Source of the DNA: Bdellovibrio bacteriovorus str. Tiberius | GTDB lineage: Bacteria; Bdellovibrionota; Bdellovibrionia; Bdellovibrionales; Bdellovibrionaceae | Length of the DNA: 64,000 nt | Reading direction: 5' to 3' | Assembly (NCBI RefSeq): GCF_000317895.1 | Contig: NC_019567.1 | Location: forward strand, 3,410,001 to 3,474,000 | Shown here: positions 769 through 36,207 of the stretch, one piece after another | Position numbering within the stretch: the stretch's first letter is position 1 | How the letters are laid out: every line of letters starts with the position of its first letter | Position numbers and translations under genes: made by a program | The notes under the pieces: model-generated | The model's database searches: none | Told to the model about the DNA's origin: nothing | What the model saw: only the letters and a program-made list of their open reading frames with translations

Positions 769-2454
769 TTAATAGGGACTATAGAATACTTCAGTTTCGC
801 AACTGCCATAGGAAGGATCATCTGACCATTGTGTAAATGTATAGAACCCCTCCCCCATCCAGCCGTCGTAAACAGATATGTATACAGCCTGTGGAATATA
901 CCAATTTGTTTCATCAAAATCCAATGAGGCACCCCAACCGGGGGCTCCATTATTCAAAATAAAATCCCAGCCAGAACTATCAATCTGAACAGTTACGGGG
1001 CCAGATGGTTCGTGCGGCAGGGAAACCTCGTAATAACCTCCATCATATGGCCCCCATATTGGTGGAAGACTTGATAGGCAAACTATCTTCGGCATAGACT
1101 CACTGATCTTTAAGGCGACGCTGGGCAGTGTCTGCCCAGACAGACCCCCACCAGATGCTGTATGCGTAATAGTCGTATTTCTCTCACCATCTACCACTAA
1201 ATTATCCGGAACCTTCACATGCACCACTTGGTTCGCATTCCAATTTTGTTGATCAAAATTCAGCGTCAGGGATTGAGTGCCAGACAACCCATCAAGAGAA
1301 AGTTGAACATCAGACAGAGCTGCCAAGGCTGAAATTGTAACTGTCCCAGTAGGCTCGCTACTCAAACGAACGGAATATGACGTAGAGACAGTATCACCCT
1401 CAGTTACTTCAAGACTTTGCCCGACAATGACAACAGGTGGTGGAGCTACGATCGAAATTGCTATTGTCTTTGTAGAAATATGTTGTCTCAAGTTAACGAC
1501 AACGTCATGAAGAAGGTCTAGTATAAGATTGAGGTCATCGATGTCTGCTTGATATAAAGCGCGATGTGCACTACTTAGTGCTGACTCCTTAGCAATTTCC
1601 TTTTCAATTTTTCTGGTTCCACCATTTTTAATAGCAACTCGCAATGAGGACACTGCAGCTTTATCTGTCCCATACAGCGACGCTGTGAAACTCTTTGTTC
1701 CTATATCAGATATCGATGTTTGCCGCTCATACTTGTACTTAACTTCAGAAGTCTTCACTGCAAAGACACTCTGCGCGTTAAAATTAGCCACAATATCAAA
1801 CTCTTGTTCTTCTGAAATACCTGTTCCCAGTGGATCAATATCTATATCTACCTTCAATAAATCCCCTGCATCAAACGTATCTGCGACCCTTTCAGTGGAT
1901 AATATGAGCGCTTCTGTCATGACCTTGCGAGACTTCAAACTCGCCGCAACATTAATACTTTTCGTGAGAGTACCAACAGAGCTGCGACTTAAAGCTAAGT
2001 CACTTTTCAAATCCGCTTTCTTCTGCCCCAGATTCTGAATTGCTAGGGTTAAACTCGCAGCCTTATCTGGATCGGTCTCAATAGACTTAAGTTCCTTTAA
2101 TTTAACAATTTCTTTATCAACAATAACTATCTGAGATCTCACAGATTCCGCAAAAACTTTATTCTGGGAATATACATGAACCGTCCACAACACGGTTCCA
2201 ACTTGCAGTGACTTTAAAACCCCCGCAAACTCTCTATCACTAAGCTGTATAACCCTCTGAGATTGCGAACCGACCACGCTTTCAACATGATATTCCAAAC
2301 TCTCATGCAACGGAGCTAATGAGATTAGCAATGCCGCATTTTGGCCATCTATATACTGCTGACGATCTGTTCTGATAATACCGATGCTTTGGGCAGAAGC
2401 CGAAATGCCCCAAAACAACATCAAAAATAAGAAAAATCTATTCTTAGAATTCAT
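769..2454 (-). CDS. secreted modular protein, shared N-terminal module plus Calx-beta-like repeats
   Basis: A 561-residue protein with a Sec signal peptide (cleavage near SASAQ, residue 21). Residues 22-100 form a beta-rich domain ending in YSQNK, followed by a heptad-like coiled coil at about 100-165 containing ETDPDKAA. A second beta-type domain lies at about 195-285 and a short helical segment (YQADIDDLNLILDLL) at about 300-320. The C-terminus carries two related repeats: residues 345-450 look like a Calx-beta/cadherin-like unit (SLEVTEGD, NFDQQNW, VKVPDN), and 457-561 is a diverged copy (SLPHEPSG, DFDETNW). The N-terminal architecture is shared with the next two genes upstream. The function is not known; such beta-sandwich repeats are typical of extracellular adhesion or Ca-binding modules. 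It is the last gene of a three-paralog run. Confidence 0.75.
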   Translation of the reverse strand: MNSKNRFFLFLMLFWGISASAQSIGIIRTDRQQYIDGQNAALLISLAPLHESLEYHVESVVGSQSQRVIQLSDREFAGVLKSLQVGTVLWTVHVYSQNKVFAESVRSQIVIVDKEIVKLKELKSIETDPDKAASLTLAIQNLGQKKADLKSDLALSRSSVGTLTKSINVAASLKSRKVMTEALILSTERVADTFDAGDLLKVDIDIDPLGTGISEEQEFDIVANFNAQSVFAVKTSEVKYKYERQTSISDIGTKSFTASLYGTDKAAVSSLRVAIKNGGTRKIEKEIAKESALSSAHRALYQADIDDLNLILDLLHDVVVNLRQHISTKTIAISIVAPPPVVIVGQSLEVTEGDTVSTSYSVRLSSEPTGTVTISALAALSDVQLSLDGLSGTQSLTLNFDQQNWNANQVVHVKVPDNLVVDGERNTTITHTASGGGLSGQTLPSVALKISESMPKIVCLSSLPPIWGPYDGGYYEVSLPHEPSGPVTVQIDSSGWDFILNNGAPGWGASLDFDETNWYIPQAVYISVYDGWMGEGFYTFTQWSDDPSYGSCETEVFYSPY

Positions 2455-2477
2455 TTTTCACCGCTTTACAGTAAGAT

Positions 2478-4553
2478 TTATTTAAAGGTGCCAGGAGTTA
2501 CGACAACAACTGGTGTAGAGGCAGTTCCGCCTATAGTGGAACCATCGCCCAAGCTTCCTTCAACATTAGTACCCCAGCATTTCGAAACTCCGTTTTGCAC
2601 AGCGCACGCATAACCAGGAGCCACCGAAAGACTTGTAACACCAGAGGTGAGACCCACAACTTGCACTGGCACAACTACAAAGCCAGTAGTTTGACCATTG
2701 CCCAAGGTTCCGCCCTGTGCGCTACCCCAACACTTAGCACTTCCGAGATTTGTAATCGCACACAACGATCCTCCACCAAGTGCCACTGACACTACCGGAT
2801 CTATATCTATAGTTACTGGAGTCGGCGAGTTCCCACTGGTAATCGTACTTCCCAACTGCCCAGACTCGGCGCTGCCCCAACATTTTAGTTGATCAAACAT
2901 CAGAGCACAGGCGGACTGATTACCAGCCTCTACATCGCTCGCGTCACTAATACCGGCGACCTTCCGAGGGGCATAGGAAGTCTCGTAACCTCCGTTTCCA
3001 AGTTCTCCTTTTGTATTTCGGCCCCAGCAATAAACACTTCCATTTTTTACGACTGCACATGTAAAAAAGTCACCTGCAGCAACATCAATCACATCCGAGA
3101 GCGGCAGCTCTGCAGGCACAACTATATATTGCTCAGTGGAACCAACTCCCAGCTGACCAAATTGATTATTTCCCCAGCAATATACCGTTCCTTTAGAAAT
3201 AGCGCAGGTATGGGCAGCACCGACTGACAACTTCTCAAATCTACCGGCCACACTGACCTGAACCGGAATATTTCTTCCGTACTGATCTCCCGTACCAAGT
3301 TGTCCCCAAGAGTTTGCCCCCCAACACCACAATTCGCCTCGGAGAATAGCGCAATTATGACTTGAACCTGTTTTAATATCCGTTACCCCATTCAATAGAG
3401 CAGGAGTTGTAGGAGTATTGGTAGATAGAGAAGCCGAAGCGTTCCCAAGCTCTCCATTAGCATTTGCACCCCAGCAATAAACCGCGGATCGATATATACC
3501 GCAGGCAGTATCGTAGCCAGCAGCAACTGTCATAAACTCATCAGGTCGATCAACTACATTGACGAGAGTGATTTCAGTTCCTCCAAGAACAGGCATGTTG
3601 TCAGAAATATTCTGAAACGCTGACCTAATAAGGTTTACGTCATTAAGTTCTCTTTGATAGTAGTCTACAATTGCGGGATCTAAGGCCGAATCCCGAAATC
3701 TAATTAGCTCTGCTATTCTTTGACTGCTAACCAAGTAGGCATTGAGAATAGACTCAGCATGGTGATAGTTAGCATAATAGAAACTGACCGACAAAACCTG
3801 AGGTCCTAATGCCAGCGCTGCACTATTTACCGTAGTCTTAAAGCTACTATCCGTAACCTTGTCGAAGTAAATTCGCTCTCCGCCCAGCCAAGCCTCTACG
3901 CGATTCTTAGTTCGTTCGGAAGTATCCGGAAACACATCAACAAAAATATCGACTTTATCTCCAAATGTAACGTCTCCGGTCGGAGTATCAATGTGCACTT
4001 TGATTGGCTCACTGGCTCTCCGCATTTCTGGTGGGTCACCAATATTCACGTCCAATGTTTTAGTCTCGACCAAGACACGATGACTTTCAATCCTAGCAAG
4101 AAGCTCTGATTTTTGCGTTTCGTACTCGGAAACTGCGACCACAATTGCAGCCTTCTTGTCGGACTCTGTCTCCTGCTCGTATCGTTCATTAAGAGCGAAA
4201 ATCTCTTTCTCAATTCTAATAACGGCAGCTTGTACATCTCGCGCCAGAACCCTATTCTGCAAATAGGCTTTTACTTCCCACACGAAGGATCCAGTCAATG
4301 CGGGACTAGCTATAACCCCCGCATATTCAGTTTCCCCGAATCGAGTAACCTTCAGATTCTCGCCATCAAACTTACTGGTTATGTATATCTCGACCTCAGG
4401 ATCCGTCGGAGTCGTTCGCACAGACGCAATAAGTGCCAGTCTTCCGCCAACAATTGGATTGCCATAGCTATTTAACTCTAGAAACTTCGGCGCATTCGCC
4501 TGCGCATCAAGACAGAAGATAACGAAACAAAAAATAAGAATAAGATTCTTCAT
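2478..4553 (-). CDS. secreted protein with shared N-terminal module and seven-bladed RCC1-type propeller
   Basis: A 691-residue protein with a signal peptide (cleavage near AQANA, residue 20). Residues 21-100 are the shared beta module ending YLQNR, 100-165 the shared coiled coil (ETESDKKAA), about 183-275 a second beta domain, and 295-320 the helix YYQRELNDVNLIRSAF. From about 340 to the end there are seven RCC1 repeats, each recognised by a CWG...G-x-LG signature, which is enough for a complete seven-bladed propeller. Every blade also has a paired Cys (C-A-x7-9-C-W-G), suggesting one disulfide per blade in an exported protein. RCC1 propellers are generic protein-binding platforms; the partner is unknown. 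Its start overlaps the stop of the upstream gene by 4 bp, so the two are probably co-translated. Confidence 0.8.
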   Translation of the reverse strand: MKNLILIFCFVIFCLDAQANAPKFLELNSYGNPIVGGRLALIASVRTTPTDPEVEIYITSKFDGENLKVTRFGETEYAGVIASPALTGSFVWEVKAYLQNRVLARDVQAAVIRIEKEIFALNERYEQETESDKKAAIVVAVSEYETQKSELLARIESHRVLVETKTLDVNIGDPPEMRRASEPIKVHIDTPTGDVTFGDKVDIFVDVFPDTSERTKNRVEAWLGGERIYFDKVTDSSFKTTVNSAALALGPQVLSVSFYYANYHHAESILNAYLVSSQRIAELIRFRDSALDPAIVDYYQRELNDVNLIRSAFQNISDNMPVLGGTEITLVNVVDRPDEFMTVAAGYDTACGIYRSAVYCWGANANGELGNASASLSTNTPTTPALLNGVTDIKTGSSHNCAILRGELWCWGANSWGQLGTGDQYGRNIPVQVSVAGRFEKLSVGAAHTCAISKGTVYCWGNNQFGQLGVGSTEQYIVVPAELPLSDVIDVAAGDFFTCAVVKNGSVYCWGRNTKGELGNGGYETSYAPRKVAGISDASDVEAGNQSACALMFDQLKCWGSAESGQLGSTITSGNSPTPVTIDIDPVVSVALGGGSLCAITNLGSAKCWGSAQGGTLGNGQTTGFVVVPVQVVGLTSGVTSLSVAPGYACAVQNGVSKCWGTNVEGSLGDGSTIGGTASTPVVVVTPGTFK

Positions 4554-34389: not shown

Positions 34390-34404
34390 GCGTCTTTGTC
34401 TTTT
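34372..34404 (+). terminator. terminator overlapping the rpoH stop codon
   Basis: AAGACGCC (34373-34380), 8-nt loop, GGCGTCTT (34389-34396), then TGTCTTTT. The stem covers the last codons and the stop. Confidence 0.65.
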
Positions 34405-34834
34405 AGTAGTTCAAGACACCGCGCCCACGCAAATTCAGTACGACGTCTTCCTGAGGAGTCAGCTCAATTTCCAGTTCCGCGCGATGCTGTCCCAAACGAC
34501 GAGGTTCAAAGAACACACGAATACGGCACTGCTGGCCTCTGAAAAGAATCTGAGGGCAGTTTTCAGCGTAATCAAAAGAATTGTCGCCGCTCATATCAAA
34601 ATCATTAATGTACATGGGAAGTCCGCTGTTGTTGCGCAGATAAAATGTTGCCCGTTTATCCTGGAACAAACGTGTGCGCCCGAAATTGTAATAGTAATCC
34701 CGGTCCAGCGTTGTCGTGTCGTCCGTCACATTGATCACGTACACTTCATTGATATCGCTTTCGTTGAAATCCTCGTATGCCAAAACGGGTGAAGCGAGGA
34801 GTAGACCCAGAAAAAGACCTGTTAAGATTTTCAT
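34403..34834 (-). CDS. secreted protein with ASPM/SPD-2/Hydin-like domain
   Basis: The ATG at 34834 has AAGGAGG 5 bp upstream. The product is 143 residues with a signal peptide (LTGLFLGLLLASPVLA, cleavage near residue 20). The mature protein is one immunoglobulin-like beta domain (ATFYLRNNSGLPMYINDFDM, CPQILFRGQQCRIRVFFEPR, VLNLRGRGVLNY) of the choice-of-anchor-D/ASH type. It has two Cys, likely paired. Such domains are usually periplasmic or surface-exposed; partner unknown. Confidence 0.75.
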   Translation of the reverse strand: MKILTGLFLGLLLASPVLAYEDFNESDINEVYVINVTDDTTTLDRDYYYNFGRTRLFQDKRATFYLRNNSGLPMYINDFDMSGDNSFDYAENCPQILFRGQQCRIRVFFEPRRLGQHRAELEIELTPQEDVVLNLRGRGVLNY

Positions 34835-35004
34835 AAGCACCTCCTTAAAATCCATTTCATTCCCATCGCGATGATGGCGCAAAATGAATTTCTTCGATGG
34901 TGGGAATTTCATAGAAGGGCGCGTCTGCTGTCATTAACCACAGGTCATCCCGCCCCGCTTGAACGGGCACTTTGCCCCGATTAATGAACTGTTGGAAGGG
35001 AAAA

Positions 35005-35040
35005 TAAAAAAGGGACCTTCCGTTTTAAGGAAGGCCCCTT
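35005..35040 (-). terminator. Rho-independent terminator of the 54-residue gene
   Basis: Minus strand: AAGGGGCCTTCC, 7-nt loop, GGAAGGTCCCTT, T5-6. A 12-pair stem with one G-U. Confidence 0.9.
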
Positions 35041-35066
35041 CTCGCTCGAAGACAAAAGGAGAACGG

Positions 35067-35231
35067 CTATCTGCTGTTTCTTCTGTCGGATCTATCTTGT
35101 TGAGGTCTTTGGGATGTTTGAGAACCTCTCTCGGAAGAACGCTCTCTCTCCAAACGGCTGCTTTCTTCTCTTTGAGATCTGTCTTTGTTCAAATCACCCT
35201 GTTGTGGCCTGTTTGTTCTTTCTGTTCCCAC
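35067..35231 (-). CDS. 54-residue Arg/Ser/Gln/Glu-rich protein
   Basis: A GTG start at 35231 has AAGGAGG 5 bp upstream; the ATG at 35264 lies above that ribosome-binding site and is not favoured. The product has almost no hydrophobic residues (RTNRPQQGDLNKDRSQREES, then further Arg/Ser/Glu/Gln to the end) and is surely disordered. It has no signal peptide. A palindrome 22 bp upstream, a perfect ribosome-binding site and a strong terminator make it a complete transcription unit. No family recognised; RNA or nucleic-acid association is a guess from the Arg content. It lies between rpoH and fliA. Confidence 0.6.
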   Translation of the reverse strand: MGTERTNRPQQGDLNKDRSQREESSRLERERSSERGSQTSQRPQQDRSDRRNSR

Positions 35232-35252
35232 GGTTTCCTCCTTGTGGTTTTC

Positions 35253-35270
35253 ATAAGCATTCATGCTTAT
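35253..35270. promoter_or_regulatory. perfect palindrome (operator-like) upstream of the 54-residue gene
   Basis: ATAAGCAT-TC-ATGCTTAT: 8-bp arms with a 2-bp centre. It lies 22 bp before the GTG start. Confidence 0.55.
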
Positions 35271-35319
35271 AAAGAACCCTTAAGCAAAGACCCTGCCACT
35301 TTGTGATATGCCCGATAAC

Positions 35320-35351
35320 AAAAAACTCCCGGGATTTCTCTCCGGGAGTCT
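35320..35351 (-). terminator. Rho-independent terminator at the end of the flagellar operon
   Basis: Minus strand: GACTCCCGG, loop, CCCGGGAGT, T6. It follows the fliA stop by about 30 bp. Confidence 0.9.
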
Positions 35352-35382
35352 CAAATTTTTTCTTATTCTCGTTTGCTGACTA

Positions 35383-36207
35383 TCAGGCGATTTCGAGTTC
35401 GCCAGCGCCGATGGTTGCTGCCAGTTTCGCACGCAGACGGGCGACGGCTTGAGCATGCAATTGGGACACGCGGGATTCTGTCACGCGCAGAACCTGACCG
35501 ATCTCTTTCAAGTTCAGATCTTCGTAGTAATACAAAGACAGAACCAGGCGCTGACGCTCTGGCAATTCTTCAATCGCCTGCGCCACAACTTCTTTGATGT
35601 TTTTAACATTCAATTGATTGAACGGGCTGTTGGTGCGGGAACCTTCAAGAATATCCATGATGGATTTCTTGTCGGTATTGCTGAAGCTTGTCGCCTGATC
35701 GATTGGCAACAAACTGACCGGGCGAACCTGATTCACCAGATCGTGGAATTCATCAATATTTACATTCAGTGCCTTAGCCACTTCTTCGTCGGAGGGAGTA
35801 CGACCAAGATCAGCTTCCAGTTGCACCATGGTTTTATCCAAAAGCTTGGCTTTGTCACGGATAGAGCGGGGAACCCAGTCCTGTGCACGAAGTTCATCCA
35901 GGATTGCTCCACGGATGCGGAATTCAGCATAGGTTTTGAATTTATTGTCACGAGTGGAGTCGTACTTTTCAATCGCATCCATCAAACCGATGACACCTGC
36001 AGAAATAAGGTCATCCAGCTCGATATTGGAGGGAAGTCGTACCGCAATCTTCTGAGCGATGAACTTAATCAACGGAGCGTACTCTCTGATAAGGTCATCT
36101 TTTTGCGTCGGAGCGAGCTTGCGTGGCTCTTCCTTGTACTTCTTCAACAATGCCGCATTTTTCCCCATATTTTCCCTCTTGAAGTCTATGTTATCAAACA
36201 GGTCCAT
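35383..36207 (-). CDS. fliA: flagellar sigma factor FliA (sigma-28)
   Basis: FliA directs RNA polymerase to late flagellar and chemotaxis genes. Length 274 or 261 residues; the ATG at 36168 has AAGAGGG 6 bp upstream, better than the ATG at 36207. Region 2 (LDDLISAGVIGLMDAIEKYD, AEFRIRGAILDELRAQDWVPRS) is close to FliA/WhiG, region 3 follows at about 130-175, and region 4 is LNLKEIGQVLRVTESRVSQLHAQAV. It is the last gene of the operon, after flhF and flhG, a common order in polar flagellates. Late genes in the window (fliC, the chemoreceptor) are its likely targets. Confidence 0.95.
   Translation of the reverse strand: MDLFDNIDFKRENMGKNAALLKKYKEEPRKLAPTQKDDLIREYAPLIKFIAQKIAVRLPSNIELDDLISAGVIGLMDAIEKYDSTRDNKFKTYAEFRIRGAILDELRAQDWVPRSIRDKAKLLDKTMVQLEADLGRTPSDEEVAKALNVNIDEFHDLVNQVRPVSLLPIDQATSFSNTDKKSIMDILEGSRTNSPFNQLNVKNIKEVVAQAIEELPERQRLVLSLYYYEDLNLKEIGQVLRVTESRVSQLHAQAVARLRAKLAATIGAGELEIA

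Follow-up and report, generated by a model that had tools for sequence, protein, structure and literature searches.

Hydrophilins and other small stress-induced disordered proteins, such as those of the GsiB type, are very hydrophilic and disorder-prone, and the hydrophilin rule asks for a glycine content above 6%. Within Bdellovibrio, the disordered regulatory protein Bd0108 (PMC4267844) offers a precedent for small disordered regulators. At the nucleic acid level, sigma-54 promoters, which are switched on with an AAA+ enhancer-binding protein (bEBP), follow the consensus TGGCACG-N4-TTGCW (PMC3538637), and several bacterial mRNAs are stabilised by 5' stem-loops (PMC7509114).

The mini-gene described here lies in a 64-kb window, i.e., the whole stretch of DNA that was analysed, and can be compared with each of these systems. 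Its most probable reading is that of a unit switched by sigma-54 and a bEBP, producing a 5'-hairpin-stabilised mRNA for a disordered, hydrophilic and positively charged protein. Comparison across genomes demonstrates, at the sequence level, a conserved unit with its start codon, coding selection, sigma-54-type motif, covarying hairpin and terminator (Table 1). The complete and independent miniature transcription unit that had originally been predicted is thus found again, with a conserved architecture, in eleven copies. Judged against the libraries and the open-access literature searched, it is apparently undescribed.

Table 1. Features of the mini-gene and of its upstream neighbour, in window coordinates.
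Feature	Coordinates	Strand	Remarks
fliA, upstream neighbour in the window clade only	35383..36207	(-)	Sigma70 r2/r3/r4; context, outside the unit
fliA terminator, separating fliA from the mini-gene	35321..35352	(-)	inverted repeat CTCCCGG..CCGGGAG, then T run
Sigma-54 type -24/-12 element TGGCAGGGTCTTTGC	35284..35298	(-)	exact TGGCA-N6-TTGC; C of -12 at 35284
5'-terminal mRNA hairpin (predicted)	35251..35272	(-)	folds from predicted +1; exact arms 35253-35270
Shine-Dalgarno AAGGAGG	35237..35243	(-)	GTG start codon 5 nt further on
CDS of 54-aa R/S/Q/E-rich protein MGTERTNRPQQGDLNKDRSQREESSRLERERSSERGSQTSQRPQQDRSDRRNSR	35067..35231	(-)	GTG start 35231, stop 35067, by translation
Intrinsic terminator of the mini-gene	35007..35043	(-)	15-pair stem by scan + T run, dG -24.3 kcal/mol, z -4.7

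Homologues are present in 11 of the 24 Bdellovibrio species genomes. A six-frame search of 60 relatives reveals the protein almost unchanged in G023 and G005 and more diverged in G015, in each case just after fliA; orthologues are 94-98% identical in two species, about 76-80% in another. A weak match of this search in G019 (E 0.02) corresponds to a copy with the full architecture at a locus other than fliA. Searches with three successively trained covariance models (R1-R3), built on the stretch from the promoter to codon 9, add G004, G009, G010, G011, G021 and G022. At first detection, the E-values are 1.6e-8 for G004, 3.7e-7 for G010, 1.7e-5 for G022, 2.6e-5 for G021 (7.3e-4 with the protein profile), 0.0016 for G009 and 0.008 for G011; final-model E-values are not independent, since later members join the training set. 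Each of these additions is backed by synteny, an intact frame and a terminator. Outside the genus, only weak matches are obtained and none is accepted as a member. One of them, at L119 1501-1574 in G067 (another genus of the family; E 0.28), contains TGGGACAGTTTTTGCTTT then AAAGGAGG, followed by a GTG-started, hydrophilic, Arg/Ser-rich frame, and may be a distant analogue of the mini-gene. A phage origin was also considered and set aside, the phage records giving no DNA match.

The motif points to the use of sigma-54 at the mini-gene promoter. TGGCA-N6-T[TCG]GC precedes all eleven family members, with a variable spacer sequence and a constant GG/GC spacing, and rpoN is encoded in the window genome G000 (PF04552, E 1.4e-65). 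This genome contains 72 exact copies of the motif vs. 27 of the reversed control, which is imperfect as its CpG content differs. Like sigma-54/bEBP promoters, the mini-gene thus has the element, an rpoN gene in the genome and, beside its clpB-locus copies, a bEBP gene; it differs from them in that four distant copies have TCGC or TGGC at -12 (TTGC in the seven others) and in that no upstream activator site is recognised. In most clpB-locus genomes, the promoter begins a few bases past the clpB stop codon, so that any activator site there would be within coding DNA. When placed 12 nt past the C of the -12 element, the predicted +1 (about 35272) lies 0-3 nt from the base of the hairpin in all eleven copies. 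As promoter and hairpin are recognised separately and their positions agree, each supports the other. A sigma-70 promoter scan finds no promoter for the unit, and an inverted 12-mer common to the upstream regions of some promoters was discarded, not being conserved. Elsewhere in the window genome (L147 1501-1564; G000:C1:678952), a TGGCAAGGCCTTTGC element lies ahead of a gene for a small, secreted-looking protein (MRVLLALLATGFMIM...), which is a further candidate sigma-54 target.

The inverted repeat at the predicted 5' end had originally been described as a perfect 18-bp palindrome and proposed as a regulator site. It consists of ATAAGCAT-TC-ATGCTTAT, that is, of 8-bp arms around a non-palindromic 2-nt centre, and comparable arms are found 12 times in the window vs. 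about 3 times in shuffled sequence, a count that terminators inflate. Taken by itself, the repeat is therefore only mildly unusual, and it is its conservation and covariation that carry the weight. Covariation was computed for the inner seven pairs and for an eleven-pair version. With the inner seven pairs of the 9 distinct hairpins, 96.8% of cells are paired and 4 of 7 pairs are changed on both sides. The covariation score is 0.48 vs. 0.265+-0.056 for shuffled alignments, slid controls are all lower, and none of 500 shuffles reaches it, although this count is not a probability because the hairpin sequences are related by descent.

The possibility that the repeat is a DNA operator, bound by a dimeric regulator at the promoter start point, was favoured as long as only the five close members were available: these have the same inner arms (ATAAGC/GCTTAT) around a 6-nt centre that varies, and the repeat does overlap the predicted +1. 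It was dropped once the distant members showed compensatory changes, the arms varying there in a paired fashion (U-A to C-G in 3 sequences, A-U to G-C), together with G-U changes, whose tolerance is an RNA trait. Moreover, the stem is lengthened to 11-13 pairs by clade-specific sequences, and the pattern of hairpin plus Shine-Dalgarno, searched in 197 genomes, is confined to five family members, so that nothing suggests a regulon with this site in common. We thus regard an operator as unlikely, and the compensatory and G-U changes, along with the location at the predicted +1, lead us to read the repeat as an mRNA 5' hairpin.

As for the role of this hairpin, an RNA thermometer or any other sequestration of the Shine-Dalgarno was rejected, since the latter is outside the stem in all members. 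As the hairpin leaves the Shine-Dalgarno uncovered, stabilisation of the 5' end would be the most natural role, by analogy with the stem-loops of the ompA type. Like these, the mini-gene hairpin starts at most about 3 nt from the predicted 5' end, with a strong Shine-Dalgarno beyond the stem; it differs from them in its unrelated sequence and in being tied to a start of sigma-54 type.

The mini-gene is almost certainly a real protein gene. Translation from the GTG confirms the predicted frame, with 13 Arg among 54 residues and a net charge of +4, preceded at 5 nt by AAGGAGG, and a strong GGAG-type Shine-Dalgarno is present in all eleven members. The start codon is GTG in the window, ATG in G015 and TTG in G019 at the equivalent position, and in G015 an in-frame stop upstream of this position closes the longer frame. 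This alternation and this stop fix the start at 35231. The original warning that annotation might place it at 35264 was justified. The ATG at that position falls within the hairpin, at 9 nt from the predicted 5' end, and the G015 stop also excludes it. The frame, whose disruption in close relatives would have spoken against the gene, is intact in them. With a dN/dS of 0.08-0.26 within the fliA-locus group and of 0.11-0.23 within three clpB-locus species, the protein is, on these ratios, under purifying selection. A terminator had been predicted with 12 pairs; its presence is confirmed, but its stem is longer than that (Table 1), and each of the eleven members has a hairpin and a T run after its stop codon.

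The unit could alternatively act as a purely regulatory or dual-function small RNA, the peptide being secondary. Sigma-54-driven small RNAs are known in other bacteria, and the transcript would be short, highly structured (z -3.4 for the whole unit) and independently terminated. Low dN/dS ratios, a strong Shine-Dalgarno, length changes that keep the frame, the use of three start codons at a single position and a peptide N-terminus conserved amid synonymous change all speak for translation instead, and no Rfam covariance model matches at gathering score anywhere in the window. We give this alternative little credence, although the mRNA may have some regulatory function in addition.

The position of the mini-gene next to fliA and rpoH, to which interest had been attached, is not general. 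fliA itself is 93-100% identical across the genus, in all but one genome. The mini-gene follows it in 4 of 24 genomes, while 20 have fliA without it there. In seven of the eleven species, clpB immediately precedes the mini-gene, after which come a DUF1328 gene and the gene of a bEBP (PF00158 and HTH_8 domains) that is a candidate activator. Downstream in the window, a gene for a signal-peptide-like protein with a match to a HYDIN-type Ig domain (34403-34912, (-) strand) is placed between the mini-gene and a convergent gene for an rpoH-type sigma factor.

An attack-phase flagellar role, the peptide being a partner of FliA such as an anti-sigma factor or a FliA-regulated product, could be evoked from the four species with the fliA arrangement and from the FliA-type motif found in two-thirds of HD100 attack-phase promoters (PMC3627812). 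It is nevertheless highly improbable. The terminator of fliA intervenes, and is also found after the fliA stop codon in G023 and G005; most genomes have the gene arrangements given above, at clpB or without the mini-gene; and the unit has no FliA-type promoter (TTAAG-N16-CCGATA), the only candidate being a CCGATA on the opposite strand, neither conserved nor accompanied by a matching -35. The unit also has no entry in the HD100 attack-phase small RNA table (PMC3627812). This absence, which tells against the sigma-54 reading as well, is weak evidence as the table is restricted to attack-phase-specific intergenic RNAs and would omit annotated ORFs. G005 shares its coordinates with HD100, its c-di-GMP-I riboswitch lying within the merRNA coordinates of that study. 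Finally, a spurious, chance frame is scarcely credible: low complexity, the lack of a family match and absence from most of the genus could suggest one, but eleven copies share an identical five-part architecture and coding selection.

At the clpB locus, the DUF1328 gene has its own TGGCA[TC]-N6-TTGC promoter in 5 of 7 cases (L160, L161, L155, L156, L186), which suggests that the bEBP is the centre of a small sigma-54 regulon; in G004, the element differs at one base. Surroundings made of clpB, DUF1328 and bEBP genes, with this second sigma-54 promoter, suggest a stress or envelope regulon. DUF1328 proteins (PF07043) are small membrane proteins; they adjoin the mini-gene and apparently share its promoter type, but are not homologous to its product. 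The bEBPs of the clpB locus form their own clade; their nearest homologue in the window genome falls into the sister group, and its gene is located elsewhere. In the window clade, this homologue and the DUF1328 gene are both unlinked to the mini-gene and have no visible sigma-54 promoter. The bEBP homologue of the window genome (L169) adjoins DUF883-like (ElaB/YqjD type) and holin-like genes (3052-3321 and 2436-3023, both (-)), which, named by eye, are again of stress or envelope type. Because most copies reside among stress genes, we favour a stress- or state-specific role over a flagellar function.

The protein itself has a single well-conserved part, the N-terminus MGT[ED][RK]xNRP (more broadly, of M-G-[TN]-[ED]-[RK]-x-N type). 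Beyond it, mainly composition is common to the family, with Ser, Arg, Asn, Gln and acidic residues and almost no hydrophobic ones, which supports the predicted charged and probably disordered character. Every tabulated member has a Kyte-Doolittle mean of -2.0 to -2.6 and a net charge of +3 to +5. No Pfam or NCBIfam profile matches it. Its high hydrophilicity, its propensity for disorder and its stress-type neighbours (clpB, DUF1328) are reminiscent of hydrophilins, but it is rich in Arg, Ser and Asn and has no apparent sequence relation to them. Its hydrophilicity is high on the Kyte-Doolittle scale, and glycine amounts to 3.4-9.2% across the family and to 5.6% in the window protein, which is thus below the hydrophilin threshold and is not filed as a hydrophilin. 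Bd0108 differs from it in locus and in function, and no relation is claimed.

In the sigma-54/bEBP reading, RNA polymerase with sigma-54 and the bEBP would switch the mini-gene on, giving a transcript of about 270 nt (35272 to about 35002) that begins at the base of the stem-loop. The latter would shield the 5' end from decay of the RppH/RNase E type, making the message long-lived as in the ompA analogy, and the strong Shine-Dalgarno would drive GTG-start translation of the 54-aa, net +4, strongly hydrophilic disordered protein. This protein could be an abundant hydrophilin-like protectant or a polyionic binding peptide. Composition and neighbours make such a stress- or state-specific function the most likely one, albeit with clearly less than even confidence. 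Still more tentatively, the bEBP, the DUF1328 protein and the disordered Arg/Ser-rich peptide, with its mRNA kept long-lived by the 5' hairpin, might form a genus-specific sigma-54/bEBP stress module, in which the polycationic peptide remodels or protects RNA, ribosomes or the chromosome between prey, in a dormant or stressed state.

No sigma-54 target in Bdellovibrio was found in the literature searched. The mini-gene is a compact, genus-conserved candidate, for which promoter, start point and mRNA structure are defined, and it comes with a candidate activator (the bEBP) and a candidate co-target (the DUF1328 gene). It also represents a family of small proteins that diverge in sequence but retain their composition, N-terminus and gene architecture; homology-based annotation may overlook such proteins or pick the wrong start codon. 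Small proteins are also under-represented according to a proteome study (PMC12546842). A second small protein, disordered and of 60 aa, is encoded at L014 1468-1650 (-) (G000:C1:1968475-1968642) and at L017 in G023. It is rich in Gln, Gly and Arg (MGDNNQRPNQGSQQNQ...), has the CACAAGGAGG site of the mini-gene without a sigma-54 element or hairpin, and lies beside genes of response-regulator-like and PAS-like type (named by eye). This Gln-rich group may be paralogous to the mini-gene family.
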